Assembly (NCBI RefSeq): GCF_000975135.1
Contig: NZ_BBRF01000001.1
Coordinates: forward strand, 1,304,380 to 1,368,379
DNA: 64,000 nucleotides
From: Demequina aurantiaca
GTDB lineage: Bacteria > Actinomycetota > Actinomycetes > Actinomycetales > Demequinaceae
Direction: 5' to 3'
Below are positions 2,236-15,621 of the stretch, one piece after another (the first letter of the stretch is position 1; every line of letters starts with the position of its first letter). A program made the position numbers and the translations under genes. Below the pieces are notes generated by a model. That model worked only from the letters and a program-made list of their open reading frames with translations. It searched no databases and was not told the origin of the DNA.

Positions 2236-4013
2236 GTGACTCACCCGTGACTGCCATAGACATGAATCAAGAGACGGATGTCCTAGTGCACGACAGCCAC
2301 AACGTCGACCCCAACAAGCCGTTGGTAGAGATTCGCGATCTCGCCATCGGGTTCACCACCCAGGGTGGTGTTGTCGAGGCGCTCAAGGGCGTGTCCTTTG
2401 ACATCTTCCCGGGCGAGACCGTCGCCATCGTGGGTGAGTCGGGTTCCGGCAAGTCCACGACTGCCCATGGCATCATCAACCTGCTTCCGGAGAACGGCAA
2501 GATCACCGGTGGCAGCGTGAAGTTCGAGGGCAAGGACCTCGCGACCGCCAAGAAGGCTGATCTTTACAAGGTCCGCGGCCGCGACATCGGCTTTGTTCCC
2601 CAGGACCCGATGTCGAACCTGAACCCGGTGTGGTCGGTTGGCTTCCAGGTTCGTGAGGCGGTCAAGGCCAATGGTCTGGCAACCAATAAGAAGGACGTGA
2701 ACGCCCGGGCCATTGAGGTGCTCAAGGAGGCTGGGCTCGCAGATGCTGAGCGCCGTATGGCGCAGTATCCGCACCAGTTCTCGGGCGGTATGCGTCAGCG
2801 CGTGTTGATCGGCATCGGCCTAGCAGCCAACCCCAAGCTGCTCATCGCCGACGAGCCCACCTCAGCCCTCGACGTCACCGTGCAGCGTGTCATCCTCGAC
2901 CACCTCGAGGCCCTCACGCGCGAGCGCAACACGGCGTTGTTGCTTATTACGCACGACTTGGGGCTGGCTGCCGAGCGTGCCACCAAGCTCATCGTGATGT
3001 ACCAGGGCAAGATCGTGGAGGCTGGGCCCAGCCTTAAGATCCTGCAGAGCCCTCAGCACCCGTATACCAAGCGCCTCATCGCGTCGGCTCCGTCGCTTGC
3101 GTCGCAGCGCATTTCCGGCACCCACGTTGATCACGTGGGCGGGAAAGAGGCGGGTATCGATGTCGCGGACCTCGCGGCTAAACACGAGCGCGCCAAGGCG
3201 GACCAGGCAGCCACGCCGGTCGTCGAGGTCAAGGATCTCACCAAGATCTACTCGATCCGCAAGGGCAACTTCAAGTCCGAGCCGCTGCGTGCGGTAGACA
3301 ATATTTCGTTCAGGATTCCCAAGGGCAGAACGCTCGCCCTGGTGGGGGAGTCGGGTTCGGGTAAGACCACGGCCGCCAAGATGGTGCTGGGACTCGAGAA
3401 GCCAACGAGCGGCGACATCTTCCTCGATGGCACCAACCTGGCGGGCGCCTCGCGCAGCGAACTCTTCAAGGTGCGTCGCAAGATGCAGCCGGTGTTCCAG
3501 GACCCGTATGGATCGCTCGACCCGCAGCGCTCCATCGGTGCGATCATCAGCGAGCCGCTCAAGGTGCACAAGGTGGGCGACAGCGCCTCGCGTGAGGCCC
3601 GCATCAAGGAGCTTCTCGAGCAGGTGTCGCTGCCCACGGCGGTCGCCAAGCGGTACCCCAACGAGCTTTCTGGTGGTCAGCGTCAGCGTGTGGCAATTGC
3701 TCGCGCCCTGGCACTCAAGCCGGAGATCGTGGTTCTTGATGAGGCCGTCTCAGCGCTTGACGTTCTGGTCCAGGCGCAGATTCTGCAGCTCCTCGCGGAC
3801 TTGCAGTCTGAGCTCGATCTGACCTACCTGTTCATTACGCACGACCTTGCGGTGGTGCGTGTGGTGGCCGACGAGATCGCGGTCATGGAGCAGGGCAAGA
3901 TCGTTGAGTCCGGCACCGCTGACGACATCTTCAGCAACGCCCAGACCGAGTACACCCAGAAGTTGCTGGAGGCCATTCCTGGCGCCGGCATCGAGTGGGG
4001 CGACGTCGAGTAG
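2232..4013 (+). CDS. Fused DppD-DppF dual ATPase of the ABC importer
   Basis: This 593-residue protein carries both nucleotide-binding domains of the importer. NBD1 (about 30-300) has Walker A GESGSGKST, signature SGGMRQRV and Walker B LLIADEPTSALD. NBD2 (about 325-590) has GESGSGKTT, LSGGQRQRVAIARAL and VVLDEAVSALD. Both domains are followed by the oligopeptide-type C-terminal extension (PQHPYTKRLIASAPSL after NBD1). The fusion replaces separate DppD and DppF subunits and is common in actinobacteria. It powers import from the cytoplasmic face. The gene overlaps dppC by 4 bases and ends 6 bases before a convergent gene. Confidence 0.95.
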   Translation: MSDSPVTAIDMNQETDVLVHDSHNVDPNKPLVEIRDLAIGFTTQGGVVEALKGVSFDIFPGETVAIVGESGSGKSTTAHGIINLLPENGKITGGSVKFEGKDLATAKKADLYKVRGRDIGFVPQDPMSNLNPVWSVGFQVREAVKANGLATNKKDVNARAIEVLKEAGLADAERRMAQYPHQFSGGMRQRVLIGIGLAANPKLLIADEPTSALDVTVQRVILDHLEALTRERNTALLLITHDLGLAAERATKLIVMYQGKIVEAGPSLKILQSPQHPYTKRLIASAPSLASQRISGTHVDHVGGKEAGIDVADLAAKHERAKADQAATPVVEVKDLTKIYSIRKGNFKSEPLRAVDNISFRIPKGRTLALVGESGSGKTTAAKMVLGLEKPTSGDIFLDGTNLAGASRSELFKVRRKMQPVFQDPYGSLDPQRSIGAIISEPLKVHKVGDSASREARIKELLEQVSLPTAVAKRYPNELSGGQRQRVAIARALALKPEIVVLDEAVSALDVLVQAQILQLLADLQSELDLTYLFITHDLAVVRVVADEIAVMEQGKIVESGTADDIFSNAQTEYTQKLLEAIPGAGIEWGDVE

Positions 4014-4019
4014 ACCGCT

Positions 4020-4712
4020 CTAGAAGCTGAGGACAAACAGTCCGAAGCCCGCGACCAGCACAGCAATCGACAGCCAGTTGGGTCGGCGAGAAATCGCCTT
4101 CTCACTGGCTGTCGCCGTTTCCGGCGACAGGGTATTTTCCGCGCCCGATGCTGTGGTGGCTGGGGAAGTCACGGCGGCCGATGCATCGGCTGGCTGCGCG
4201 GTGAGGGTCGCCGAGGGCGCTTCGCCGCCCTTCCTCCACGCCTGGAACGCGTCGTCGACCATGTGTGCGGCGCTTCCGGAGGCGCTCTCGGGGGAGCTGC
4301 TGGGGCCGTTCGTGTAGATCAGAGTGGGGGCCTCGGGGTGTCCTCCTGTTTCGCCGGGGGTGATTCGTCGCGACTTCATGGCGCCGGGAGCAGGTGCGGC
4401 GAAAGCGCTGGTCTTGGACGCATCATCCGTCACCAGTTCGAGCGCCCATCGGGTGCGGATGGACTCTAGCCGCGCGAACGGCACGGTGGAGATCGTCACC
4501 ACGTTGACCACTACGACGTGGTCGGAGAAAACATCGACGCGAGGGCGGAAGTACGCGGCGAAGGCGAGTCCCGCCAGGGCAGCGAGGAAGCCGAGCGCGG
4601 GCCGAGCCTCGTACCAGCCGCCGCCAATGAGAACCATGATGCCGATGACGGCGCAGAGACCCATGACGATGGTGGAGTAGATGAGCGAGGAGCGGGCTCG
4701 GAACTGTTTCAT
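4020..4712 (-). CDS. PH-domain-like integral membrane protein of unknown function
   Basis: The 230-residue protein has two hydrophobic segments near the N-terminus (about 10-55). A short beta-rich stretch follows (VDVFSDHVVVVNVVTISTVPFARLESIRTRW is spread over 57-90) that resembles the bacterial PH fold found in small actinobacterial membrane proteins. Then comes a long, low-complexity Ala/Ser/Thr/Glu-rich cytoplasmic region and one last hydrophobic segment at the C-terminus (NWLSIAVLVAGFGLFVLSF). It is convergent with the ABC ATPase gene and divergent from ychF with 48 bases between them. I recognise the general type, not a function. Confidence 0.75.
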   Translation of the reverse strand: MKQFRARSSLIYSTIVMGLCAVIGIMVLIGGGWYEARPALGFLAALAGLAFAAYFRPRVDVFSDHVVVVNVVTISTVPFARLESIRTRWALELVTDDASKTSAFAAPAPGAMKSRRITPGETGGHPEAPTLIYTNGPSSSPESASGSAAHMVDDAFQAWRKGGEAPSATLTAQPADASAAVTSPATTASGAENTLSPETATASEKAISRRPNWLSIAVLVAGFGLFVLSF

Positions 4713-4760
4713 GCAGACATCGTGTCACGAGTCTCCACATGGCAACTAGACTTGACTCCC

Positions 4761-5846
4761 GTGGCCTTAACTATCGGAATCGTCGGACTGCCCAACGTTG
4801 GCAAGTCCACCATGTTCAATGCGCTGACCCGTGCGGGGGTGCTCGCCGCGAACTACCCGTTCGCGACCATCGAGCCCAACGTGGGAGTGGTGTCACTGCC
4901 CGACTCGCGCCTCGGGGTGCTGGCCGGAATCTTCGGCTCGGAGAAGATCCTCCCCGCGACGGTGTCCTTCGTGGACATTGCCGGCATCGTCAAGGGCGCC
5001 TCCGAGGGAGAGGGCCTGGGAAATGCGTTCCTCGCGAACATCCGCGAGGCCGACGCGATCTGTCAGGTGACCCGAGCGTTCGAGGATCCCGATGTGGTGC
5101 ACGTCGACGGCAAGGTGGACGCTGCCTCGGACATCGAGACCATCAACACCGAGCTAATTCTCGCCGACCTGCAGACTATCGAGAAGGCTATCCCGCGCCT
5201 CGAGAAGGAAGTCAAGATCAAGCGCGCGGAGCCCGCCTTCCTCGCCGCGGTGCTCACCGCCAAGGAGATCCTGGAATCCGGCAAGGCGCTCAGCGCGGGC
5301 GCTAAGGAAGCGAAGCTTGACCTCGCGGACGTTAAGGAACTGTCGTTACTGACGGCCAAGCCGTTTATCTACGTATTCAATACGGACGATGCTGGGCTCG
5401 CCGATGAGGCTTTGAGGGCCAAGCTCGCCGCCCAGGTCGCGCCCGCCGAGGCGATCTTCCTCGACGCACAGTTCGAGTCCGAGCTTGTGGACCTCACCGA
5501 GGACGAGGCCGCCGAGATGCTCGCGGACTCCGGCCAGGAGGAAGCAGGGCTTGACCAGCTTGCGCGCGTGGGCTTCGACACCCTCGGACTGCAGACCTAC
5601 CTGACCGCCGGCCCCAAGGAGTCGCGCGCGTGGACCATCCGCAAGGGTTGGACCGCGCCGCAGGCCGCCGGCGTCATCCACACGGACTTCGAGAAGGGCT
5701 TCATCAAGGCTGAGGTGGTCTCGTTCGACGACCTGGTCGAGTTCGGAACTATGGCCGATGCGAAGGCCGCTGGCAAGGTGCGCATTGAGGGCAAGGATTA
5801 TGTGATGCACGACGGCGACGTGGTCGAGTTTAGGTTTAATGTGTAG
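4761..5846 (+). CDS. ychF: Redox-regulated ATPase YchF (Obg-family)
   Basis: This is an Obg-like P-loop ATPase that binds ribosomes and ATP and is linked to stress responses. Starting at GTG 4761 gives MALTIGIVGLPNVGKST, the exact family N-terminus, and 361 residues, the usual length. The central coiled-coil region is at about 130-200 and the TGS domain is C-terminal, ending VVEFRFNV. There is no Shine-Dalgarno sequence; a TAGACT hexamer at 4747-4752 suggests a nearly leaderless mRNA. The last codons (TTT AGG TTT AAT GTG) are unlike the GC-rich codon use of the rest of the gene. Together with similar copies downstream, this suggests that the 3' end was supplied by an integrating element (see findings). 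Confidence 0.97.
   Translation: MALTIGIVGLPNVGKSTMFNALTRAGVLAANYPFATIEPNVGVVSLPDSRLGVLAGIFGSEKILPATVSFVDIAGIVKGASEGEGLGNAFLANIREADAICQVTRAFEDPDVVHVDGKVDAASDIETINTELILADLQTIEKAIPRLEKEVKIKRAEPAFLAAVLTAKEILESGKALSAGAKEAKLDLADVKELSLLTAKPFIYVFNTDDAGLADEALRAKLAAQVAPAEAIFLDAQFESELVDLTEDEAAEMLADSGQEEAGLDQLARVGFDTLGLQTYLTAGPKESRAWTIRKGWTAPQAAGVIHTDFEKGFIKAEVVSFDDLVEFGTMADAKAAGKVRIEGKDYVMHDGDVVEFRFNV
5820..5846 (+). repeat. ychF tail, left attachment-site copy (R0)
   Basis: These are the last nine codons of ychF including TAG, encoding VVEFRFNV. The codons AGG and AAT are unusual in this gene. Other copies of the same peptide-coding tail are at 6954-7000, 9229-9261, 10934-10980 and 12893-12939. Confidence 0.65.
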
Positions 5847-5869
5847 CGCAACCTGACCGCGACGCTCGG

Positions 5870-6760
5870 CTACTGCCCTGGACGGTTGAGAATGTCGGCA
5901 TCCCACGTCAGGTCTGCTCCCTCATTGAGGGGGAGCGCTTCAATGGCGGGGTCCTGGACTAAGTCCAATACGAGTTCGTGGCTGCCGGCGACCAATGTGG
6001 AGTCGAAGTCGATTTCGGTCACCATGGCCCAACTTCTGTCCGCGGGCCAAAGGATGCTCGGAGATTGCGGGAATTGCGCGGAATGGTGCCAGGGCACCTG
6101 ATTCACCCAACTCTGCTGGCGGTAGAACTGCGGTGCACACTTATATAGGTAGTAGGCGCGCCCTGGCAGTTCCAGCTTTTCGCCATTGACCACTTCCGCC
6201 GGCAGGAGGCCAGAACCAGGTCCGACTTCCCCTGTGGAGAGCGGGGAAGTGTCTTTGAGGACACGCCCGTCGTCTGAAAATGTGAGCATGGCATAGCCGG
6301 CCGAACTTGTGAGGCCACCCCACCCTTCCCAGATGGCGGAGACACCGTCGTCTGGGGTGGATGTGTGTTCGCAGAGCCAGGCGGCCACTGCAGCCAGGGT
6401 GTCCGGTGCGAGGTTCCCGGTTTCGGGTTCCGAGTAGCGCCAGCCCTCGCTGTCCATTATTTCCTGCTCGCTCATTTCCTGCCCGATGAGCCGATGGAAC
6501 TGGGCCAACGGGTGCATCTTGGTACCAAAGGTTCTCGCGATGTCTGACCACCGAACCTGTTGCTCTTCGAGGGCGACGACTCCCATTCGGGGATGACCGT
6601 GCCACGTGCCGGTGCCCTGCGGGCGGTCCCGCGTTACCGGATGGAAGATTCTGGCGTAGGCGGGAAAGCCTCGCGGTACGACGGAGTGCATGTCATGCCA
6701 CACCGTGTCCAGCAACGGCTTGAGCCACTCACCGGCGGTGGCATCGGGCATCGTGTCCAT
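5870..6760 (-). CDS. Protein of unknown function (first island cassette)
   Basis: A 296-residue soluble, aromatic-rich protein with no signal peptide or membrane segment; I do not recognise the family. Visible traits are several Trp-rich motifs (GEWLKPLLDTVWHDMHSVVP near the start, SAIWEGWGGL in the middle, SILWPADRSWAMVTEIDFDS near the end), a pattern seen in uncharacterised actinobacterial proteins. The ATG at 6760 is supported by a TAGGCT hexamer exactly 6 nt upstream, the leaderless arrangement used by many genes in this window. It lies alone between the ychF stop and the first internal ychF-tail repeat, so it may be the cargo of one cassette or an older resident gene. Confidence 0.6.
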   Translation of the reverse strand: MDTMPDATAGEWLKPLLDTVWHDMHSVVPRGFPAYARIFHPVTRDRPQGTGTWHGHPRMGVVALEEQQVRWSDIARTFGTKMHPLAQFHRLIGQEMSEQEIMDSEGWRYSEPETGNLAPDTLAAVAAWLCEHTSTPDDGVSAIWEGWGGLTSSAGYAMLTFSDDGRVLKDTSPLSTGEVGPGSGLLPAEVVNGEKLELPGRAYYLYKCAPQFYRQQSWVNQVPWHHSAQFPQSPSILWPADRSWAMVTEIDFDSTLVAGSHELVLDLVQDPAIEALPLNEGADLTWDADILNRPGQ

Positions 6761-6772
6761 GGCGACAGCCTA
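6761..6772 (-). promoter_or_regulatory. Leaderless -10 element for the 6760 gene
   Basis: On the minus strand TAGGCT (6772-6767) is followed by 6 nt and then ATG, which fits a transcript starting at or next to the start codon. Confidence 0.5.
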
Positions 6773-6953
6773 GCCACCGGAGCAGGGATCCAACCTGTGC
6801 GACCCAAACCGTGCACCTGCCGCATAGCGTCGGGTTGTGTGTGCCACAGCCGTGACAGGGGGCCGCGCTGGGTGCGTGTTCCCGAGGGGAATCTGGCCTG
6901 CCGAGGTCGGCCACGCCAAAGCCTCCGTGGAGGGGTCTGTGCGAGAGATTCAG

Positions 6954-7000
6954 GGGTTATTCCGCTACGGAACGCGGTGGAGTTCCGCTTTTCGCTTTAA
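6954..7000 (+). repeat. ychF-tail repeat R1
   Basis: In the frame CGG AAC GCG GTG GAG the copy encodes RNAVEFRFSL-stop, matching the C-terminus of YchF. From GGTTATTC through GAGTTCCGCTTT it matches R4 at all but a few positions, including bases upstream of the ychF-like part that are absent from ychF itself. Those shared upstream bases look like the conserved end of a family of elements. Confidence 0.65.
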
Positions 7001-7286
7001 CCCCTGGGGGCATGGCGGAGACTTCTCCGCTTGTCATTTCGGTCAGCGACGCGCTCGTCCGTCATCTCTTGCTCCATCGCAGCGTGAGTAGGTACTCCCG
7101 CGCCATTGCAGAGGCAGTCTGGATCTCGCGATCAGCGATCGCATCAAGGTTGCTGAGCGTTCTGGCAGGCATCACCTCCGAACTTGCGTCGCAGAAGCAG
7201 TAGATCCATCGTGACTTTGCGACTGCGCGTGTAGTGAAATGCCAGTGATACTGCTCGCAGTGTGTTTGATATGGCACGATGTTCAT
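7001..7286. other. Non-coding stretch between R1 and the DGQHR gene
   Basis: About 290 bases with only short, unconvincing reading frames on both strands (for example 7012-7203 plus and 7062-7286 minus). It should contain the promoter of the DGQHR-HEPN pair; no clear -35/-10 pair stands out. Confidence 0.5.
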
Positions 7287-8609
7287 ATGGCCCGTGTGGT
7301 GGGGGGAGACGGACCCGATCTAGCAAAGGACAAGATGGTCGACGTAGCGGAAAAACTCGACACGAGACTGGTGGGGCCTCTCGATCCCAACGTGCAAACG
7401 ATAATCGAGGATTTCGTTGAGGTCTGTCACCCCGTCGAGTCTCTTCCGATCCTCGTGTTGCGTGACAACGCGACTGCGGCGGTCTTTGTGGAAGTTCACC
7501 TGCTCGCCGACGCACTCGTGCGGGTAGCGACTCTCGACGTACCCCTGGATCCGGATGACTCCGGCGACTACCGCGCGAACCGCGAGGTAGTCGAGGACCA
7601 CGTGGCATTCGCCAAGATGAAGGAAGATGCCACGAACGCTCGTGCGTTCAGCAACCTGGTGTGCGAGTTTACGACCGCTTTCGATGAAGATCATCCGTTG
7701 AAGGTAATCGGCGGTCAGCACCGATTCACTGCCATCCAGGAAGCGCTCGAGAACGGCGTCAACGAGCACCATGGAGTGAAGCTTTACTTCGCCCTGGACA
7801 ACGAGCAGAGACTCGACGTCCAGTTGATCTCGAATACCAATATCGCCGTCTCGACAGACTTGTTCGACCGCATGACCGAAACACTCGCAGGGCCGGAACT
7901 GCGTGAATGGTGCCAGAAGGTCGGGCTGCTCGAGAAGGACGAAGACTTCGCCGACCGCCGGGCCCGAGGCAATCCGATCACGGTGCGCGCCGCTCGGACT
8001 TTTATCGTCAACTACTATCGCGGCACTGAAGTGGAGCCGAAGAAGTTCGATAAAACGGCTACGACTCCAGCGCTGCTCAAGTCCGGCGTGAACGTCGAAG
8101 AATGGGAGACGCTTAAAGCGCAGAACCCCACGTTGTGGGAAGACAAGAACTTGCAAACAGCAGGTCGGGAGTTCGCACTTCTGGTGGATGCTCAGCGCAA
8201 GCGTTTCACAACGGCCGCAGGAAAACTGAAACCAGGGTCCGCGGATTCGGCAGAGAAGGCGATGAACTATGCCGTGCTGAGCGCGTGGGCGTACGTCGCG
8301 GGTGTCCTGAGTAAGAACAAGACACGTCAGAGGCGGCATTTTGCACTGAGAACAGTGCAGAACAAGGACCCACTGAACGCCGCCGCTCTCGGGAAGGGGC
8401 GACACAAAGCTGATCAGGAAAACTATCGCGGCCTCGGGTATCGCACAGACGCGAAGGAGCGCAACCGCCTCGTGGAGCTCTTCTACCTACAGGCAGAGGA
8501 CGGCTCCCAGATCACAACCGCCAAGATCGATCTGGCGATCAAGAAAGCCGTTGCTAAGGAAGCGCTGCTCGAAGTATCCAAGGCATCTGCGAAGGCAAAG
8601 TCCGAATGA
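7287..8609 (+). CDS. DGQHR/ParB-like domain protein
   Basis: A 440-residue cytoplasmic protein whose residues 142-148 read GGQHRFT, preceded by a beta-strand (LKVI). This matches the signature of the DGQHR/DndB-like and ParB/sulfiredoxin-type folds, which occur in DNA-modification, partition and phage-defence proteins. The C-terminal half is helical, charged and Lys-rich. ATG 7287 was chosen because the upstream in-frame start adds 16 residues with no obvious homology; neither has a good ribosome site. The stop overlaps the start of the HEPN gene (ATGA), so the two products are made together and probably act together. The precise activity (nuclease, NTPase or regulator) cannot be read from the sequence. 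Confidence 0.7.
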   Translation: MARVVGGDGPDLAKDKMVDVAEKLDTRLVGPLDPNVQTIIEDFVEVCHPVESLPILVLRDNATAAVFVEVHLLADALVRVATLDVPLDPDDSGDYRANREVVEDHVAFAKMKEDATNARAFSNLVCEFTTAFDEDHPLKVIGGQHRFTAIQEALENGVNEHHGVKLYFALDNEQRLDVQLISNTNIAVSTDLFDRMTETLAGPELREWCQKVGLLEKDEDFADRRARGNPITVRAARTFIVNYYRGTEVEPKKFDKTATTPALLKSGVNVEEWETLKAQNPTLWEDKNLQTAGREFALLVDAQRKRFTTAAGKLKPGSADSAEKAMNYAVLSAWAYVAGVLSKNKTRQRRHFALRTVQNKDPLNAAALGKGRHKADQENYRGLGYRTDAKERNRLVELFYLQAEDGSQITTAKIDLAIKKAVAKEALLEVSKASAKAKSE

Positions 8610-9142
8610 GTATGGAAGCTGACGGCTTCTCAATCCGTCTGCTAGACGAGGCCAAGCGTTTTCTCGAGAAAGCGGAAGTGGCGTCCGGCGATGAGCAGGA
8701 CGCATGCCTTCACGCGGCATTGATTGTCGGGTTCAGTGCGCTTGAATCACACCTGAACGGCATCGCCGAAGAATTGTCATCCCGTACCAATACAGACCTC
8801 CTCCACAAAGCGATCCTTCTTGAAAAAGACATCAAGATTGAAAACGGAGTGTGGAACCTTGGTAAGGACAAGTTCTATCGGCTCGAAGACCGGATAGCGT
8901 TCCTGGCTGCGGAATACTCCGGCAAGGCGCCTTCGGCCTTTACCTGGTGGTCCTCCCTGCGCGACGGGATGAAGGTGCGCAACTCTCTCGTCCATCCCCG
9001 TGACGCCATCGTGCTGAAGTTGTCGGACGTGCAGAGGTTCTTAGGCGCGATTGTTGAAGCCCTCAACGACATTTACCTCGGCGTCTTCAAGAAGGGGCAC
9101 CCGTCGTTCAACCGCGGACTCCAGTCGACAATGTCCTTCTGA
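8606..9142 (+). CDS. HEPN-like protein with R-x4-H motif
   Basis: A 178-residue, mostly helical protein. Residues 125-130 read RNSLVH, which matches the R-x4-6-H motif of HEPN ribonucleases, with a polar residue directly after Arg as is usual; HPRD follows. The N-terminal half (ACLHAALIVGFSALESHLNGIAEEL) looks like the first helices of the HEPN bundle. HEPN proteins are toxins or RNase effectors in toxin-antitoxin and abortive-infection systems. The gene overlaps the DGQHR gene by 4 bases; an alternative ATG is at 8612. It is either the effector of a two-gene system or a non-catalytic HEPN partner. Confidence 0.7.
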   Translation: MSMEADGFSIRLLDEAKRFLEKAEVASGDEQDACLHAALIVGFSALESHLNGIAEELSSRTNTDLLHKAILLEKDIKIENGVWNLGKDKFYRLEDRIAFLAAEYSGKAPSAFTWWSSLRDGMKVRNSLVHPRDAIVLKLSDVQRFLGAIVEALNDIYLGVFKKGHPSFNRGLQSTMSF

Positions 9143-9228
9143 CAGGTGTCGCCGTTTAATTGTTTGAGGCCCGGGATAGTGCCATGCAGGCCGACTCGCT
9201 TGTCAACTCGCGATAGCTTGGCAAGTGC

Positions 9229-9261
9229 CGGAACGCGGTGGAGTTCCGCTTCGCGCTCTAA
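9229..9261 (+). repeat. ychF-tail repeat R2
   Basis: CGG AAC GCG GTG GAG TTC CGC TTC GCG CTC TAA encodes RNAVEFRFAL-stop. The copy lacks the GGTTATTC upstream box seen in R1 and R4 but shares a downstream CTAAcATCTgGTGACGG block with R3. It sits in a 290-base gene-free stretch (9143-9432) that otherwise shows no gene. Confidence 0.6.
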
Positions 9262-9432
9262 CATCTGGTGACGGGTTCCTCGCGAGATCTGTCCGAATCG
9301 AGTTTCGGTTGCAACGTGCTGGCTGAAGTTAGCTACTGAGTGCCTGGTGAGTAGCCAGTAGGTTGGTTCTACAGCGCTTCACCGTGCCAGCAGTATGCAG
9401 CGTGGTTGGGATCCTTGATTTGGGGGAGATTC

Positions 9433-10887
9433 TTGGACGGGGGGAACTTGAGCAGTGGCGACGAAGTCGATGGCTTTCTCGAGCGGGAGTTCGTCGCCGC
9501 TCCAAAGGTGCTGACGTCGAGCCTCTATCACTACACCTCTTCGGACGCTGCCATTCTGGGAATTCTTGCCAATCGAAGCATCCGGATGTCTCCTTTCCAG
9601 GGGACGAACGATCTTTGGGAGTCTCGGCCCCTTTGGCCGAACCTTGAGGGCGAGTCTAGCCGCGGCGAGTCCACTCACGAGGATGTCGTCAGTATCTGGG
9701 AGGACATCGATCGCTACATTCGGGGATACTCGAAGGTGGCGTGCTTCACCCAAGACTGGGAACTGCCAGCTTCAGCAATGCGGCCAGATGCGCTTCGCGG
9801 TTGGGCCCACTTGTCATTATGGGCGCATTACGGAGCCAGGCACACCGGTGTGTGTCTTCGGTTCGACCGAGACCGGCTTGTAGCCGCTTTTGAGGCCGGG
9901 CGGGAGAACGCCATCCATCAATTCCACGGGTCGGTCCGGTATCGCAGTGCGGAATTTGGAGACGGACCCCATGGCATCAGCCTTGAGCAAGCTGAGGAGT
10001 TCGGTATCGATGCTGTTGCGCTTCGATACGCACACGTTCATCGCGACCGAGTATTCTTCCGCAAGCATGCGGATTGGGCCAGTGAGGCCGAATTCAGATT
10101 GGTCCGAACAGACCTTTCCACCGAACCGCACTATTTCGACATCACTGATGCCCTCACCGGCGTCGTGTTGGGAGATGCATTCCCGAACGACCGGATGCCG
10201 GCGTTGCTCGCGATGCTGGCCAACTTCGACGATGTGGAGCTGCTGCAGGCTAGGTTCCACAACCGCGCTTTCCATCTGTTCCCTAGAGAAGCGCTTGCTG
10301 AGCCCGAGCCACCACCCACGCCAATGCCGACGACCGCTTCAACGATTCCGCCGCGGCGCCCCGGGGATCTCGCCCATCGACTGGACTCGCTTGAAGAGGC
10401 GGAACGGACCGCGGGCACCGACCGACAGGCAGCGATTCAGGTTGCTGCACCCGTGCTCCAGACATGGCATGAAGGCCTCTGGGAGCGGCCTGAGCTGTGT
10501 GCGGACTGGTCGCGCATTCTCGTTAACTTTTATCCCCATGCAACTGCGATCCCAGAGGAAGAGCGGTGCAAGCGTCCGGGAGTTCCGGGCGAAGTCATCG
10601 CCTACGAGGCTGGGCTCATGATGGTCGGTGAACATCAACCGCAATACAGCTTCACTTGGGTCATGGCGATCGCTCTCCAGATCATGCCAAGCGGCGCAGG
10701 GCGACTGCATGCGTGCATCACGACGGAGGAATGGAGAATAGCAGGCAACGACCGGCGGGAGCTCTACCGAAACGTACGCGACGCGAGTCCGGACGAGCTC
10801 GTGGAAGCGTCGCGCGAAGTGCTGGCGGGTCTGATTGAAGCGCTACCAGATGCTCGATCAAAGTTTGATGAACTCCGTGGAGCGTGA
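9433..10887 (+). CDS. DUF2971-domain protein with C-terminal extension
   Basis: About 484 residues from TTG 9433, which has GGGGGAG four bases upstream; TTG 9406 and TTG 9448 are alternatives. The N-terminal part (about 20-300) has the DUF2971 pattern: LYHYTSSDA, an RMSPFQGTNDLWE region, WAHYGARHTGVCLRFD, and a late FRKHADWASEAEFRLVR. DUF2971 proteins are frequent in defence islands and have been linked to ADP-ribosyltransferase-like folds, but their chemistry is not settled. After a Pro-rich linker (about 303-320) a second part of about 160 residues is unfamiliar to me. The gene is alone between repeats R2 and R3, with no antitoxin-like partner. Confidence 0.65.
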   Translation: MDGGNLSSGDEVDGFLEREFVAAPKVLTSSLYHYTSSDAAILGILANRSIRMSPFQGTNDLWESRPLWPNLEGESSRGESTHEDVVSIWEDIDRYIRGYSKVACFTQDWELPASAMRPDALRGWAHLSLWAHYGARHTGVCLRFDRDRLVAAFEAGRENAIHQFHGSVRYRSAEFGDGPHGISLEQAEEFGIDAVALRYAHVHRDRVFFRKHADWASEAEFRLVRTDLSTEPHYFDITDALTGVVLGDAFPNDRMPALLAMLANFDDVELLQARFHNRAFHLFPREALAEPEPPPTPMPTTASTIPPRRPGDLAHRLDSLEEAERTAGTDRQAAIQVAAPVLQTWHEGLWERPELCADWSRILVNFYPHATAIPEEERCKRPGVPGEVIAYEAGLMMVGEHQPQYSFTWVMAIALQIMPSGAGRLHACITTEEWRIAGNDRRELYRNVRDASPDELVEASREVLAGLIEALPDARSKFDELRGA

Positions 10888-10933
10888 GTATGAGGAGAGC
10901 TACCCAAGGACCTGACGGCGGTTGTATGCCTTG

Positions 10934-10980
10934 AGGCTATTTGGTCACGGAACGTGGTGGCCTTAGGTTTCGCGCCCTAA
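10934..10980 (+). repeat. ychF-tail repeat R3 (most diverged)
   Basis: CGG AAC GTG GTG at 10948-10959 is followed by a diverged GCC TTA GGT TTC GCG CCC TAA, encoding RNVVALGFAP-stop. The bases upstream (GGCTATTTGGTCACGGAAC) match the R1/R4 element end with substitutions. The copy is decayed but aligned at every codon. Confidence 0.5.
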
Positions 10981-11086
10981 TGTCTTGTGACGGTGACGCC
11001 ACTACTGCTCACCAGCCTGGGCTCTTTCACTCGGCGCGCGGGTATGTGGCCTATGCAAGAAGGACCGCGGCTTGCGCTCTGCAGGA

Positions 11087-12007
11087 TCACGAAGACTCGA
11101 TGACCCGCCAGCGGAACGTGACGTACGGCGCGATGTAGAGGACGTCCGTGCTCTCTCGCTGCACGTCCAGTATCTCTACGACAGCGAGCCGACCGTGTTC
11201 ATTCATTAGTACTACGCGCTCGCCGATGCGCGGGGTCACAGTGCGACCGGGTACGAGGTGCTCCTCCAGCGCCCCGTCGTCGGTCGTCGCGCTACGGACC
11301 AGTCCGACGGCCTTCACCGTGTCCCTGTAGACGTACACCGAGTCATTGCCGCAACCGCTCACGTGAAGTGCAAACTCGGAGACTCCAAAGCCCCATCGGA
11401 ATGTCTTCTGAGGTGCGTCGTCGTAGGAAAATTGGATCTCGCCCGTTAGTTCTGGGCTACGCCATTGGGAGGGCTCTGTTCGTGCGGCTTGGTGGTCTAG
11501 CCGAGTGGCTCGCTCGCGTAAAGTCGCGATCGACGTGGCGCTGTCTCGGTTGGCAGGGAGCCCGGCGACCCAGCGCCATAGGTCCTCGATCTGTTCGGAG
11601 CCGGGGAACTGTTGCAGACTCGCTGGAGCGTAGTTGAAGACGAACCCCCTAGGCAACCTGCTGCCGATCCAATCGGGTAGTAGGCAATTCGGGTTGTCGA
11701 CGAAGAGTGCGGTTAGCCAGGAGGGTTCGTGGGTCTCGAAGGCCTCGGCAATCCAGCGATTCTCCTTGCCGACCCCAGATTCGGGCAGCGTGTTTGCACG
11801 CTCGACGTAGTTCTCGTCCATGATGAGAAGGACTCGCCTGGAATCGGTAACCCGCCTCATGAACCCGTTGAGGTCTTCGCCATAGTCGACATCAGCGTCC
11901 AGAAGCACGTTGAAGCCAAGCGCCTTGAGTTGGGCGGCTAGCAGGTGCACCCACTCCCGGTGCTTCACCGACGTCCACGCGTACGAGACGAACAGGTCTG
12001 CGCTCAC
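11087..12007 (-). CDS. SEFIR/TIR-domain protein
   Basis: About 306 residues from GTG 12007, giving the start SADLFVSYAWTSVKHREWV, the first strand and helix of SEFIR/TIR domains; the longer upstream frame is only antisense-like sequence overlapping the neighbour. The domain covers about residues 1-165 and includes LGFNVLLDADVDYGEDL, RRVLLIMDENYVERAN and GVGKENRWIAEAFE, where the Glu could be the catalytic residue of NAD-cleaving TIR enzymes. The remaining C-terminal half is beta-rich and unknown. Bacterial TIR proteins often act as NAD-depleting effectors or signal generators in phage defence. It follows a membrane-protein gene after 17 bases, which suggests a two-gene operon. Confidence 0.72.
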   Translation of the reverse strand: MSADLFVSYAWTSVKHREWVHLLAAQLKALGFNVLLDADVDYGEDLNGFMRRVTDSRRVLLIMDENYVERANTLPESGVGKENRWIAEAFETHEPSWLTALFVDNPNCLLPDWIGSRLPRGFVFNYAPASLQQFPGSEQIEDLWRWVAGLPANRDSATSIATLRERATRLDHQAARTEPSQWRSPELTGEIQFSYDDAPQKTFRWGFGVSEFALHVSGCGNDSVYVYRDTVKAVGLVRSATTDDGALEEHLVPGRTVTPRIGERVVLMNEHGRLAVVEILDVQRESTDVLYIAPYVTFRWRVIESS

Positions 12008-12024
12008 TGGTTCGCCCCCACGCT

Positions 12025-12756
12025 CTATTGCGAGTCCTTTGTGACTGCGCTGGGGTCTCGTGGCAGATCTGCCACGAGACCGTTCGGCCCGTACCAACGC
12101 CGTTCCCCTGAGGTGAAGCTCACTTCGCCGACAAGCCTGTCGCCGTGGACCCAACCGGTGAGGTCCGGCTCGTTGTTCCCAACCTCCGGTTTGAACCCCC
12201 ATGGGCGAGATTCTTCGCGGCGGACATCTGGCGGGGGGAATGCTGAAGGCGTTCGGTGGCCCCCGCCTACGGCGCACAGGGACCGCCGCACATATTCGAT
12301 GTAGTTCAGCAGGTCGCTGGCGTCGCGGCGCCGCAACTCGTCGGGGCGATCCGGTTGTTTTGACTGGTTGTAGCGGACCAACCAGATAAGCCCGTCCCAT
12401 CGCTCGCGGACCTCCGCGGGAAGCGCGTGAGCTTCGCTAGACCCTGCTTGCAGCAGCACCGAAGCACGTCGGTTGCGTTCGTGGTGAACGTCCGCTGTGG
12501 CTCGGACTCTCACGAAGGAGGCTGAGCGGTCTTCGTCATCTTGCTTCACGGTCGTGAAATCCGCGAGCGCCGCGATCAGCCGGTCCGCTGCGAAGGAACG
12601 GCGCCGATCTTCTTCGACGCGCTGTGCTTCTTGCCGCTCTTTCGCGGCGAGGTCCGTCTCATGCTTCAGCACCTTGGCCGTTTGGCGTGAGCCTACCCAG
12701 GCAGAGAGGACACCACCAACCAGCGCGCCTAAGAGTGCTGCCAGTAGTTCGGTCAT
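12025..12756 (-). CDS. Membrane-anchored coiled-coil protein next to the TIR gene
   Basis: A 243-residue protein with one N-terminal transmembrane helix (ELLAALLGALVGGVLSAWVG), then a charged coiled coil (about 25-75, rich in Glu, Lys and Arg) and a soluble domain I do not recognise. ATG 12756 is preferred because TACATT lies 7 nt upstream (leaderless pattern); a TTG start 9 bases further out is less likely. It is co-directional with the SEFIR/TIR gene and 17 bases upstream of it, so it may be the sensor, anchor or regulator of that protein. Function is inferred only from position. Confidence 0.65.
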   Translation of the reverse strand: MTELLAALLGALVGGVLSAWVGSRQTAKVLKHETDLAAKERQEAQRVEEDRRRSFAADRLIAALADFTTVKQDDEDRSASFVRVRATADVHHERNRRASVLLQAGSSEAHALPAEVRERWDGLIWLVRYNQSKQPDRPDELRRRDASDLLNYIEYVRRSLCAVGGGHRTPSAFPPPDVRREESRPWGFKPEVGNNEPDLTGWVHGDRLVGEVSFTSGERRWYGPNGLVADLPRDPSAVTKDSQ

Positions 12757-12892
12757 GTTGAACAATGTAGCTTCTGGGACCGACAGTGCCCGCGCGCTGG
12801 CACACTACCTCATGACACCCAGGAGGACGCGGTCGCTCGAGACACTTCGGCAAGATGCTGCCGTGCGGGCACCGGTGAACGATGCAGCACAG

Positions 12893-12939
12893 AGGTTATT
12901 CGGCTACGGAACGTGGTGGAGTTCCGCTTTAACGTCTAG
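12893..12939 (+). repeat. ychF-tail repeat R4 (right end of the island)
   Basis: The last codons GTG GTG GAG TTC CGC TTT AAC GTC TAG encode VVEFRFNV-stop, identical in peptide to the true YchF C-terminus but with GC-rich host-like codons. It is the outermost copy, and upstream it shares the GGTTATTCSGCTACGGAAC block with R1. It is probably the original ychF end displaced by about 7 kb. Confidence 0.65.
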
Positions 12940-13100
12940 CGGTAGTAGCCCTCTTCGCTATGCAGTGAGCGCGATCAGATCGTTCGGCAGCAACATCGCC
13001 GAATGACTGTGGCAGCGTGAGCGGGTGCCCCACATCGATACCGGAGGTCCTCACCTATTCCGTCACGCCAGGCTGCTCACCAACTCAGTAAGACGAACAC
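12940..13100. other. Intergenic stretch right of the island
   Basis: No reading frame or structured element is convincing here. With R4 and the bases back to 12757 it forms a gene-free gap of about 340 bases between the membrane-protein gene and the glutamine amidotransferase gene. Confidence 0.5.
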
Positions 13101-14057
13101 CTAGCCCGCTGAGACATTCAGTGTGTTGATGGTTTTGGTGACGCGCTCACCGTCTTTCTCGAGGAAGACGATCTCGCCGAACTCGAGATGCGACCAGTCG
13201 TCACCCTCGGTCAAGGGCTCGGAGGCGAATATGACACCAGTCGCGTCATCCTCGCCGCACTCCTCAAAGTTATAGGTCGTTGCGTCGTGTTCGAAGTTGC
13301 GCCCCATCAGCAGGTACATCGGTTCGAGGAGCATCGAAAGGGCGAAGTCGTCGCTGTCAGGGGCTGACTTTCGCAGCTCCTTCCAGTCGCCGACGGGGTT
13401 GGTCTCACCGTGGTGACCGAGGCCGACGTTGACACCGATGATGCGGCCGGCCGACACGAGGGCCATCTTCAGCTTGGTCAGAGCGCCGAGGTCGAGTTCT
13501 TTCATCGCCTGGGCGATCAGCTTGATGAGCTTTTCGATCGCTCGTTGGACGTCCTCGTTGCTGTCACCTTCGAGCAGCGAGAGAAGCAGCACGTAGATGA
13601 ACTCGGTGTCCGTGTTTCCGCGCAATTGTTTTAGATACCGATCCTCGCAGTGCTGCAGCAACTCGCGCTGCAGGAGCTGCCAGTTGGGAAGGTATCCATT
13701 CTGGGCGACAATCCACGGCGTCTTCGCGAAGGAGAACGGGTGGCAGTTCTCGTCGACCATCACGACCTTCGAGTTGTACGCCGCGGCCCGCACGTGCGCC
13801 AGCATCGTGCTGGCCTGGAGGCTGGGGATCATCCGGCTGGCATTGTCGTCGTAAAAGGCCGCCATGGGTCGGCGGTAGATGAAGGGGTCTTCGGGCTTCA
13901 GCAAGTGCTCGCCCCAGATTCCGAATCCCCACCCGGCCAACTGGAGCTCGGGGTGCTGTTCGGGGTCGAGTGCCTGATTGATCAGGCTGTTCTGTGGCTT
14001 GAGTAGGAGGTTCTCCAGGGGTGTCTCAGGACCGAGGTAGGCGAGCACGCGGCACAT
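13101..14057 (-). CDS. Class II glutamine amidotransferase (YafJ/EgtC-like)
   Basis: A 318-residue protein that begins MCRVLAYLG, so that Cys2 becomes the N-terminal nucleophile after Met removal, as in Ntn-type glutamine amidotransferases. The family motifs are present: STMLAHVRAAAYN, ENCHPFSF, and a WIVAQNGYLPNW stretch equivalent to the GDNG region. The domain spans nearly the whole protein, with no fused synthetase. A good ribosome site (AAGGAGACGT) precedes the ATG. It does not sit in an ergothioneine operon, so a specific pathway is not supported; a stand-alone hydrolase releasing ammonia from glutamine or a gamma-glutamyl compound is most likely. Confidence 0.85.
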   Translation of the reverse strand: MCRVLAYLGPETPLENLLLKPQNSLINQALDPEQHPELQLAGWGFGIWGEHLLKPEDPFIYRRPMAAFYDDNASRMIPSLQASTMLAHVRAAAYNSKVVMVDENCHPFSFAKTPWIVAQNGYLPNWQLLQRELLQHCEDRYLKQLRGNTDTEFIYVLLLSLLEGDSNEDVQRAIEKLIKLIAQAMKELDLGALTKLKMALVSAGRIIGVNVGLGHHGETNPVGDWKELRKSAPDSDDFALSMLLEPMYLLMGRNFEHDATTYNFEECGEDDATGVIFASEPLTEGDDWSHLEFGEIVFLEKDGERVTKTINTLNVSAG

Positions 14058-14145
14058 ACGTCTCCTTCATTTGGCTCCTGCCATCCTATGCTCGTTGCAG
14101 GGTGCCGGTGATGGACGCGGTGGCGAATACGCGCCGGCGCGCGGG

Positions 14146-14157: not shown

Positions 14158-15621
14158 ATGAGTGCTTCAGCACAATCCACAGTGGCTTTCCACGATCGCT
14201 TCGCCCAGGCGCTCCCGGAAATGTGCACCCCATGGGAGGCGCAAAGGATTCACAGTCCTCAGTTGCTGGTGTTCAACGAGCCCCTGGCGGCAGAGATGGG
14301 CCTCGACCCCGCCGCCCTGCAAAGTTCTGACGGGTCGCGCCTCCTGACCGGCAACCTTGTCCCCGAGGGCGCCACTCCAGTCGCGCAGGTATATGCAGGG
14401 CATCAGTTTGGCCACTACTCTCCTCGGCTCGGTGACGGACGCGCGTTGCTGTTGGGTGAAATCGTCAATGCCAGCGGGAACCTCCGGGACGTCCACCTGA
14501 AGGGGTCCGGGCGTACACCTTTCGCCCGTGGTGGCGACGGCCAAGCGGCAGTGGGGCCGATGCTGCGCGAGTACATTCTCAGCGAGGCTATGCACGCCTT
14601 GGGTATTCCCACCACGCGGTCGCTCGCGGTGACGAGCACCGGTATGTCCGTTTATCGTGACACCGAGCTTCCGGGGGCTGTGCTGACACGGGTGGCTAGC
14701 AGTCATCTCCGCGTAGGGACCTTCCAATACGCGCGAGCCACGGGCGACGTCGAGCTTCTGCGCAGACTCGCAGATCATGCAATCGACCGTCACTACCCGG
14801 CTGCAGCGAAGGACGAGAATCCTTACCGTGCCTTGCTTACGGACGTCATTTCTGCTCAAGCGTCGCTGGTTGCTCAGTGGATGCTGACTGGCTTCGTTCA
14901 CGGAGTGATGAACACCGACAACATGACCATCTCGGGAGAGACCATCGACTACGGGCCCTGTGCGTTCATGGACGCCTTTAACCCCTCCACGGTCTACAGC
15001 TCAATCGACCAGGCGGGGCGCTACGCCTACGCCAACCAGCCCGCTGCAGCCGAGTGGAATCTCGCCCGTCTTGCGGAGTCACTGCTGCCGCTCCTTCACG
15101 AGGATGAACAGCGAGCGGTAGAGATTGCTACCGCGGCGATCGGAGGCTTCGAGGCAGATTACCTGGCCGCCTGGTCGAGGGGTGCGAGCGAGAAGATCGG
15201 TCTGCGCCACGAGGCGGACGGCGATGCCGCATCAGTGCTGGTGCAGGAGTTTTTTGCTCTTCTCGAGGAACATCAGGCAGACCTCACGTTGGCCTTCCAC
15301 CGCCTCGGCGCCGCCGCTTCCGGTTCAGCCGAGCAGGCGAGATTCCTTTTCGATGGTGCCGCAGGTTTCGATGATTGGATGGAGCGCTGGCTGCAGCTTG
15401 GCCCCGACCGCGACTTGATGAGCCATGTCAACCCCATTTATATCCCTCGTAACCACCTCGTCGAAGAGGCGCTTGCGTCGGCCACCGAGGGGGATCTGGC
15501 CCCGTTGCGTCAGCTTTTGAATACCGTGACCCGCCCCTACGAGGAGCGCCCGGGGCTAGAACGCTATGCCGCGCCGGCTCCCGCCGACTTTGGCGCGTAT
15601 AGAACTTTCTGCGGAACCTAG
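14158..15621 (+). CDS. selO: Protein adenylyltransferase SelO (YdiU family)
   Basis: The 487-residue pseudokinase-fold enzyme transfers AMP from ATP to protein hydroxyl groups and protects against oxidative stress in organisms studied. It shows the family blocks [59 protein letters not shown], and [11 protein letters not shown] with the metal-binding Asn/Asp pair, then [10 protein letters not shown]. The C-terminus ends TFCGT, keeping the conserved penultimate-region Cys where other homologues have Sec. Start at ATG 14158 is fixed by the -10 hexamer 6 nt upstream. Confidence 0.95.

Follow-up and report, generated by a model that had tools for sequence, protein, structure and literature searches.

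A row of cassettes lacking an integrase at the 3′ end of ychF in Demequina aurantiaca, and large serine recombinases as its probable source

A 64,000-bp stretch of the Demequina aurantiaca genome (contig NZ_BBRF01000001.1, positions 1,304,380–1,368,379; the whole stretch is called the window here) carries, directly downstream of ychF (4761–5846, + strand), a row of four cassettes separated by sites that resemble the coding end of this gene. We consider it about 80% probable that large serine recombinases (LSRs) of one family, borne on phage-like and mobilisable-looking actinobacterial elements, use the 3′ end of ychF as their attachment site (attB), and that the window array consists of short cassettes lined up without an integrase. 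A sequence-only reading of the window had claimed that the ychF end and four tail copies divide the region into compact one- or two-gene units, left by repeated site-specific integration.

The four site copies were confirmed in direct orientation (starts at 6951, 9212, 10931 and 12890; cores at 6968, 9229, 10948 and 12907), and the intervals contained, in order, one (−), two (+), one (+) and two (−) genes. A degenerate 24-mer built from the window site copies was searched over the 2.57-Mb genome with up to three mismatches and matched these four sites only, all on the + strand (its reversed form matched once); scattered copies away from ychF, which would speak against integration there, were not among the matches. 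For the ychF 3′ end region the genome gave a single match. The description of the sites as tail copies was right as to the likeness, which comprised the last eight codons and the stop of ychF, but each site combined one arm from an element with one of ychF type. To the left of the ychF-like part was a second block, AGAGGTTATTCGGCTACGGAAC or similar, which was absent from ychF, clear at 12890 and 6951 and worn at 9212 and 10931. An outer motif on the right was located 10 bp from the core at 6968 and 9229, giving the ends FRFSL-stop and FRFAL-stop, and 3 bp from the core at 12907; at 10948 wear was too heavy for scoring. Sites are written below as left arm, core (O) and right arm, with P and P′ for element arms and B and B′ for ychF-type arms.

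An empty site was found in the relative G016, whose YchF was 97% identical to that of the window. Window positions 3901–5847 aligned to a G016 stretch ending at the ychF stop, positions 12911–13039 corresponded to −28 to +100 around this stop (88%), and positions 13023–14137 to +340 to +1454 (94%). As the sequence-only reading had predicted for a relative, G016 passed from ychF straight into the sequence to the right of 12939, and all four window units were absent there. Either they entered next to ychF, ahead of an older unit, or G016 has lost them, the site being restored exactly. The stretch beyond 12939 (12942–13039, directly after ychF in G016) resembled the 5′ end of a ~670-bp cassette family of sister genomes (aligned with L040 and L055) and so probably represents an old unit that has become worn, not simply host DNA. 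In this comparison, the only one that showed a point of entry, the new cassettes lay beside ychF. The gene selO had no recognised adjacent site in the window (14158–15621) but lay between two array sites in G016 (L036, +1679 to +3403), where a chromosomal gene may have been turned into a cassette.

Unit numbers varied among relatives from none to nine, also as predicted. ychF and its downstream DNA were taken from 40 Demequina genomes, of which 39, all but L075, had an intact ychF end. Further site copies scoring 25 of 31 or more were detected after ychF in 31 of these 39, the window apart, with a maximum of nine in G024; some calls were weak (e.g. G039 and G022), one match in G001 was on the other strand, and the reversed sequences matched once over 673 kb. 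The units were mostly 0.45–3 kb. When the 79 intervals of the window and the 39 loci were clustered on their interiors only, 36 fell into ten similarity families, each present in at least two genomes; the four window cassettes had no relative among these ten families. A ~809-bp family occurred in five genomes at five different array distances, and a ~1866-bp family in first or second position in eight genomes. The empty site, the varying unit numbers and the same cassette at different positions upheld the claim that site-specific integration has recurred at the 3′ end of ychF. Recurring cassette open reading frames, judged by eye, presumably encode a HigA-like antitoxin, a HEPN/HepT-like protein, an aldo-keto reductase with TetR, a glyoxalase and an acetyltransferase. 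Four loci (L041:+1203, L055:+2016, L059:+2561 and L066:+642) shared one cassette family with, by eye, a long near-identical start, CTTGACTCTTCTCTTAACGAGAAGATATCGTCACGTTTTGTGAAGA and near variants, which is perhaps the family's own promoter and operator, unlike the promoterless cassettes of integrons.

Beyond the genus, a search of 84,980 species genomes for the exact 24-mer CGGCTACGGAAYGYGGTSGARTTY returned 75 stretches, all from actinobacteria by name (Demequina, Brevibacterium, Arthrobacter, Kocuria, Nesterenkonia, Brachybacterium, Microbacterium, Corynebacterium, Acidipropionibacterium, Dietzia, Ornithinimicrobium and others). With up to two mismatches allowed, matches came from 63 of the 396 genomes sampled from the order and from 14 of 109 genera; the reversed pattern matched five genomes. 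Position relative to ychF was scored for 100 of 117 listed matches (17 matches from 12 genomes were left out), 90 of them on the ychF contig and 10 on another contig. All but one of the 90 (89/90) were downstream of ychF, on the same strand and at most 28.6 kb away, which further supports repeated integration there; the exception (G432:C1:757592, one mismatch) was on the other strand, 55 kb from ychF. The accessory island of the sequence-only reading thus keeps its integration origin, but belongs to a system present in several actinobacterial genera rather than to one genome. The single plasmid-collection match of the 24-mer was on a Nocardia farcinica replicon of 2.66 Mb (34 of 61 bases), and the phage collection also had one, MT836021.1 (L189; labelled Bacteriophage sp., human faeces), which contained a full ychF and one site and looks like an actinobacterial chromosome rather than a phage; there were no matches in the viral contigs. 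Large C-terminal parts of YchF (starting at residue 190 or 213 and running to 361) were seen again 3.5–18 kb downstream of ychF in L265 (G212) and L266 (G304), indicating that some elements carry ~450–500 bp of the ychF 3′ end and not a short tail.

Arm geometry was examined in 215 distinct core matches of at least 18 of 20 positions, a few of which were ychF ends. The left outer motif was recognisable in 137, at 8 bp from the core in 124 of them, and a right one could be read in 186, with spacings of 3 bp in 155, 10 bp in 15 and 8 bp in 10; shuffled flanks gave 24 recognisable arms in 215 per side, with at most three at any one spacing. Most array sites were of attR type, P-O-B′. At 110 distinct ychF ends the right spacing was 3 bp in 76, 8 bp in 20, 10 bp in eight and 9 bp in one, with five unclear. 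Spacings of 8 bp on the element side and 3 bp on the ychF side equal a published shift between attP and attB: Rutherford et al., whose work included binding tests, proposed that the zinc-ribbon motif recognised by a Listeria integrase is 5 bp nearer the centre in attB than in attP (PMC3783163). The 10-bp right class, with a short FRFAL/FRFSL-like tail and including two window sites, was not covered by this 5-bp shift.

The place of exchange was mapped by comparing 240 distinct sites (54 ychF ends and 186 internal). Pairs sharing only one flanking cassette, at no less than 90% flank identity, numbered 43 on the upstream and 18 on the downstream side, three mixed ychF/internal pairs being set apart. 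Alleles at offset −16 agreed in 41 of 43 upstream-sharing versus 10 of 18 downstream-sharing pairs, at offset 20 in 23 of 43 versus 17 of 18, and at offset 30 in 11 of 43 versus 17 of 18. Left alleles thus tracked the upstream cassette and right alleles the downstream one, indicating exchange within about GGTSGAGTTCMGNTT. From these alleles, the last codons of YchF would come largely with the first cassette.

LSR genes were detected downstream of ychF in relatives. In 11 of 36 named genomes ychF ended in FR(T/S/H)GLTSGSKK-stop or similar, in most cases followed by kilobases without sites, and five of ten such altered-tail loci contained an LSR (L193, L208, L238, L244 and L246, the last two broken). 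At these five loci the YchF C-terminus VVEFRFNV was replaced by VVEFR(T/S/H)GxTSGSKK-like tails. PF00239 and PF07508 were present in all three intact LSRs, and the catalytic YxRxS (Y11, R13, S15) was invariant in 7/7. A search at E ≤ 1e-70 through 80 genome entries, mostly picked for arrays or unusual ychF tails and with at least two genomes entered twice (G053/G332 and G048/G239), gave LSR matches in 10 genomes, one being the query's own. In nine of them the gene was downstream of ychF on the same contig, at 1.1 to 19.4 kb, and in the tenth (G078) it was on another contig and adjoined an array site; weaker matches in G056 and G076 were also near ychF, other weak ones elsewhere. No P-arm site intervened between ychF and the LSR in the eight loci that contained ychF and a long LSR match (L193, L208, L238, L244, L246, L251, L252 and L253); L193 had a ychF-like copy at +834, and L237 a 226-aa LSR fragment preceded by one site. 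Three LSR elements had in common what we take to be a relaxase-like protein (L208:+4902, L244:+10600 and L246:+7509), hinting that they are mobilisable. The integration claimed from the window alone thus holds, with the qualification that the recombinase is most likely an LSR, a kind absent from the window genome.

The altered tails and the LSRs were tallied at loci with at least 8 kb of downstream sequence, counting LSR matches of at least 150 aa. An LSR was present at 7 of 16 loci with an 8-bp ychF tail (not a random sample, L251, L252 and L253 having been fetched for a known LSR match; 5 of 14 without L251 and L253) versus 1 of 52 with a 3-bp tail (a fragment), none of seven with a 10-bp tail, none at the one with 9 bp and, among four unclassified loci, one (L252); at two loci the tail could not be read. 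Most ychF ends were B-O-B′, those with arrays behind them included: arrays followed the ychF tail at 42 of the 52 loci of the 3-bp (B-O-B′) class.

The LSR gene was also found beside the P arm. At 8 of the 215 sites (L123, L134, L139, L148, L149, L165, L179 and L264) an LSR match started exactly 32 bp from the core and read away from the site. L179, on the same Brevibacterium casei contig as L268, had a full-length open frame, L134 had 226 matched codons and the other six had 55; these remnants suggest that some cassettes derive from LSR elements by deletion. The arm between core and LSR was the P arm of the arrays (AAAGGTTATTCGGCTACGGAAC in L179), and other intact LSRs (L238, L251 and L252) were placed elsewhere in their own elements. 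The right arm at LSR-occupied ychF ends was GTTCCG-8-TAACCTCTGG. Joined to the P arm, it makes up a predicted attP, a near-palindrome.

Viral contigs contained 68 loci encoding LSR relatives. A core of at least 17 of 20 positions was present within ~110 bp of the LSR start in seven of the ten closest (E ≤ 2e-67), against 7 of 20,000 random windows. Such matches numbered nine in all, those away from an LSR being in L325 and L338; at a looser cut of at least 16 of 20 there were 33 matches versus 24 in the reversed control, so that only the stricter matches and their position carry weight. The whole predicted attP was found in L271, as AGAGGTTA-8-CGTGAC-GTGGTCGA-GTTCCG-8-TAACCTCTGG, and a P-O-B′ site instead, as expected of integrated copies, in L276, L277 and L279. 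Among the remaining three of the seven, judged by eye, L273 was cut short by the contig end, L278 had a shorter core match and L274 an inverted core. LSR relatives in phage records were distant (28–30% identical for the best-ranked 12 of 312 matches), as were those in plasmid records (at most 30% for the best 8 of 136).

From these arrangements a mechanism is proposed in which the ychF 3′ end would act as chromosomal attB (B-O-B′) for LSR elements. The attP (P-O-P′) of an intact element would integrate to give an altered ychF tail, B-O-P′ (e.g. ending in VVEFRTGLTSGSKK and a stop), and an attR, P-O-B′, at the far end. Each array cassette would start with a B′-like (or shifted P′-like) arm and end in a P arm, producing P-O-B′ or P-O-P′ junctions, and its 5′ end, by mimicking the ychF tail, would restore both the ychF coding end and attB. 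In the window, whose genome lacks a serine recombinase, the cassettes were probably moved in trans; LSRs would supply this activity, by a route proposed below. LSRs are reported to recombine only attP with attB unless a helper factor is present (PMC3783163). A circle of a single cassette would bear an attR-type site, P-O-B′, unreactive with attB under the known rules, which counts against our reading and led to the proposal of a carry-along route. In this route an LSR element beside ychF would excise by way of a downstream attR of the array in place of its own, taking the intervening cassettes with it; element and cassettes would integrate together at ychF of another cell; and the element would later excise precisely with its own attR, leaving the cassettes behind a restored ychF. 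Carry-along, which obeys the known LSR rules and would require no new chemistry, is the route we consider most likely, and it agrees with the ychF-proximal position of intact LSR elements.

Several further points weigh against the LSR reading. PF00239 had no match in the window genome and none in 19 of 44 genomes of the genus, the ten-site G024 included. Among loci with an 8-bp ychF tail and at least 8 kb of sequence, 9 of 16 had no LSR, and the retrieval of three loci for their LSR bears on this tally. The outer motif was picked after inspection of the sites, and the 3-bp arm is conserved ychF coding end, so that the 8-bp arm is the only independent arm evidence. Within the core, alleles at offsets 8, 15 and 17 agreed in 27, 27 and 29 of 43 upstream-sharing and in 11, 12 and 13 of 18 downstream-sharing pairs, and offsets 2 and 4, to the left of these, were also loose (34 and 36 of 43 upstream-sharing); this zone is wider than a 2-bp exchange alone would give, possibly because sites within the same genome undergo gene conversion. 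Lastly, the reading is built on sequence, from which excision, circles and transfer are inferred.

Gene conversion bears also on the best of the other explanations, namely that LSRs placed the cassettes once and that their present spread is due only to DNA uptake and homologous recombination through ychF and shared cassettes. Core alleles did tend to be shared within a genome, as conversion gives (e.g. offset 15, 0.64 within and 0.47 between), two or three window sites were worn, and the 19 genus genomes without a PF00239 protein fit as well. But different cassettes share just ~45 bp, the boundaries between shared and unshared DNA fall repeatedly in the site, and 172-bp cassette ends were 98–99% identical across genera (e.g. 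L128/L171, L124/L138 and L148/L179), which makes this explanation unlikely.

We regard as rather less likely still an integron-type array, worked by an IntI-like or other tyrosine recombinase on folded attC-like sites, the window genome then holding a cluster without integrase. This was first suggested by attC-like inverted repeats, imperfect, in the site, and the direct orientation, small cassettes, insertion at one fixed end and toxin-antitoxin-like cassettes (read by eye) all agree with it. A home-made tyrosine-recombinase profile that recovered 50/50 control loci found none when run on the window and on stretches downstream of ychF or bearing sites, 177 loci in all, and the window genome had only two PF00589 matches, open frames of 311 and 314 aa (XerC/XerD size), as did the array genomes G013, G030 and G043, likewise with two of that size. 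The two arms of a junction stem from two different cassettes, the LSR gene starts beside the P arm, and the mapped exchange falls within the core (an attC site would recombine at R′ as a folded strand); with no tyrosine recombinase and with exchange in the core, the integron-type array was dropped. Action of the host XerC/XerD on ychF-linked dif-like sites is very improbable: in G000 and G030, PF00589 and PF00239 matched nothing but proteins of XerC/XerD size, but the core, by eye, presumably departs from the 11-6-11 pattern of dif sites, and ychF targeting, the 8/3 arm spacing and the LSR genes at the P arm would be left without a reason.

The window locus itself, to which the LSR reading applies as a row without recombinase, was laid out as follows. 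ychF starts with GTG and encodes 361 aa (Pfam PF06071, E = 1.7e-39); its 3′ end GTGGTCGAGTTTAGGTTTAATGTGTAG (5820–5846, + strand), the proposed host integration site, forms the left junction with cassette 1 (5847–6950), which holds one − strand gene (5870–6760, 296 aa) without a family match. Site 1 (6951–7010, + strand) consists of the P arm CAGGGGTTATTCCGCTACGGAAC, the core and a right arm with the outer motif TAACCCCTGG 10 bp from the core. In cassette 2 (7011–9204) there are two + strand genes, 7287–8609 (440 aa), with a weak DGQHR-domain match (E = 0.0015, under that domain's cut-off), and 8606–9142 (178 aa), for which no family match was found. Site 2 (9205–9270, + strand) has the core CGGAACGCGGTGGAGTTCCG at 9229–9248, a worn left arm and the right outer motif TAACATCTGG 10 bp off. 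Cassette 3 (9271–10930) holds one + strand gene (9406–10887) with DUF2971 (PF11185), called by PADLOC as candidate defence PDC-S31, and is followed by site 3 (10931–10990, + strand), the most worn copy (CGGAACGTGGTGGCCTTAGG at 10948–10967). Cassette 4 (10991–12889) has two − strand genes: 11087–12010, with a TIR_2/SEFIR domain and the PADLOC call bSEFIR, and 12025–12765 (246 aa), without a convincing family match. Site 4 (12890–12941, + strand) has the complete P arm AGAGGTTATTCGGCTACGGAAC, its outer motif 8 bp from the core (12907–12926), and the B′ arm TAACGTCTAG 3 bp from the core; this site is the right junction of the four-cassette stretch.

The ychF arrays resemble integrons and clusters of attC sites lacking integrases (CALIN) in their one-direction rows of small cassettes, in cassettes common to several genomes and in toxin-antitoxin-like cassettes (by eye), and new units lay beside the fixed end in the sole case seen (window and G016). 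They differ in that no tyrosine recombinase or IntI was found at ychF arrays, exchange falls in a two-armed core inside the end of a host gene, and the window cassettes hold genes in both directions. It is conceivable, at somewhat less than even odds, that the system is an actinobacterial serine-recombinase counterpart of the integron, a fixed platform at ychF where visiting LSR phages or mobilisable elements pick up and set down one- or two-gene cassettes that lack an integrase and have attR-type ends; the cassette end would restore YchF as well as the landing site, allowing the array to go on growing on the ychF side. Standard integron software is built on tyrosine integrases and attC. If the LSR reading is true, such software would not be expected to report a platform for gene capture that a large bacterial group possesses; accessory genes, including toxin-antitoxin-like and candidate anti-phage ones, could be collected and compared at a fixed address downstream of ychF, and LSRs would become available together with their predicted attP and attB sites.

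The LSRs of actinophages and integrative mobilisable elements (phiC31, Bxb1 and A118 types), as generally known, are alike in having PF00239 and PF07508, YxRxS and a site beside the integrase gene, and also in the near-palindromic attP (seen in L271) and the 5-bp arm shift between attP and attB. Here, in contrast, relatives from isolated phages were only 28–30% identical (the best 12 of 312 matches), and the ychF site accumulates cassettes without integrase. No description of ychF as an LSR site or array was found in the open-licence literature, preprints and most subscription journals lying outside the scope of the search. In Streptococcus, a different host, two papers place prophage attachment upstream of ychF, on the other side of the gene (PMC10383233, PMC8637289).

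The staphylococcal and Enterococcus cassette chromosomes (SCC and ECC), with the recombinases CcrAB or CcrC, share with the ychF system a large serine recombinase, direct att repeats and very variable cargo, and multiple attR sites were reported in 16 of 32 ECCs (PMC6222049); half of the ECCs studied thus have attR copies in a row, as in ychF arrays. When one LSR was compared with the Ccr models it scored 63.4 (CcrB), 45.7 (CcrA) and 31.7 bits (CcrC), below their cut-offs of 900, 700 and 900. SCC inserts at the 3′ end of a conserved gene (rlmH/orfX), and some of its elements are without recombinase. The target rlmH differs from ychF, downstream of which 89/90 same-contig sites are located; the hosts here are actinobacterial, and Demequina units are mostly 0.45–3 kb, in rows of up to nine sites beyond ychF. 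LSR integration at a gene end is known; no earlier account of small cassettes without integrase lined up behind ychF in several actinobacterial genera came up in our searches.

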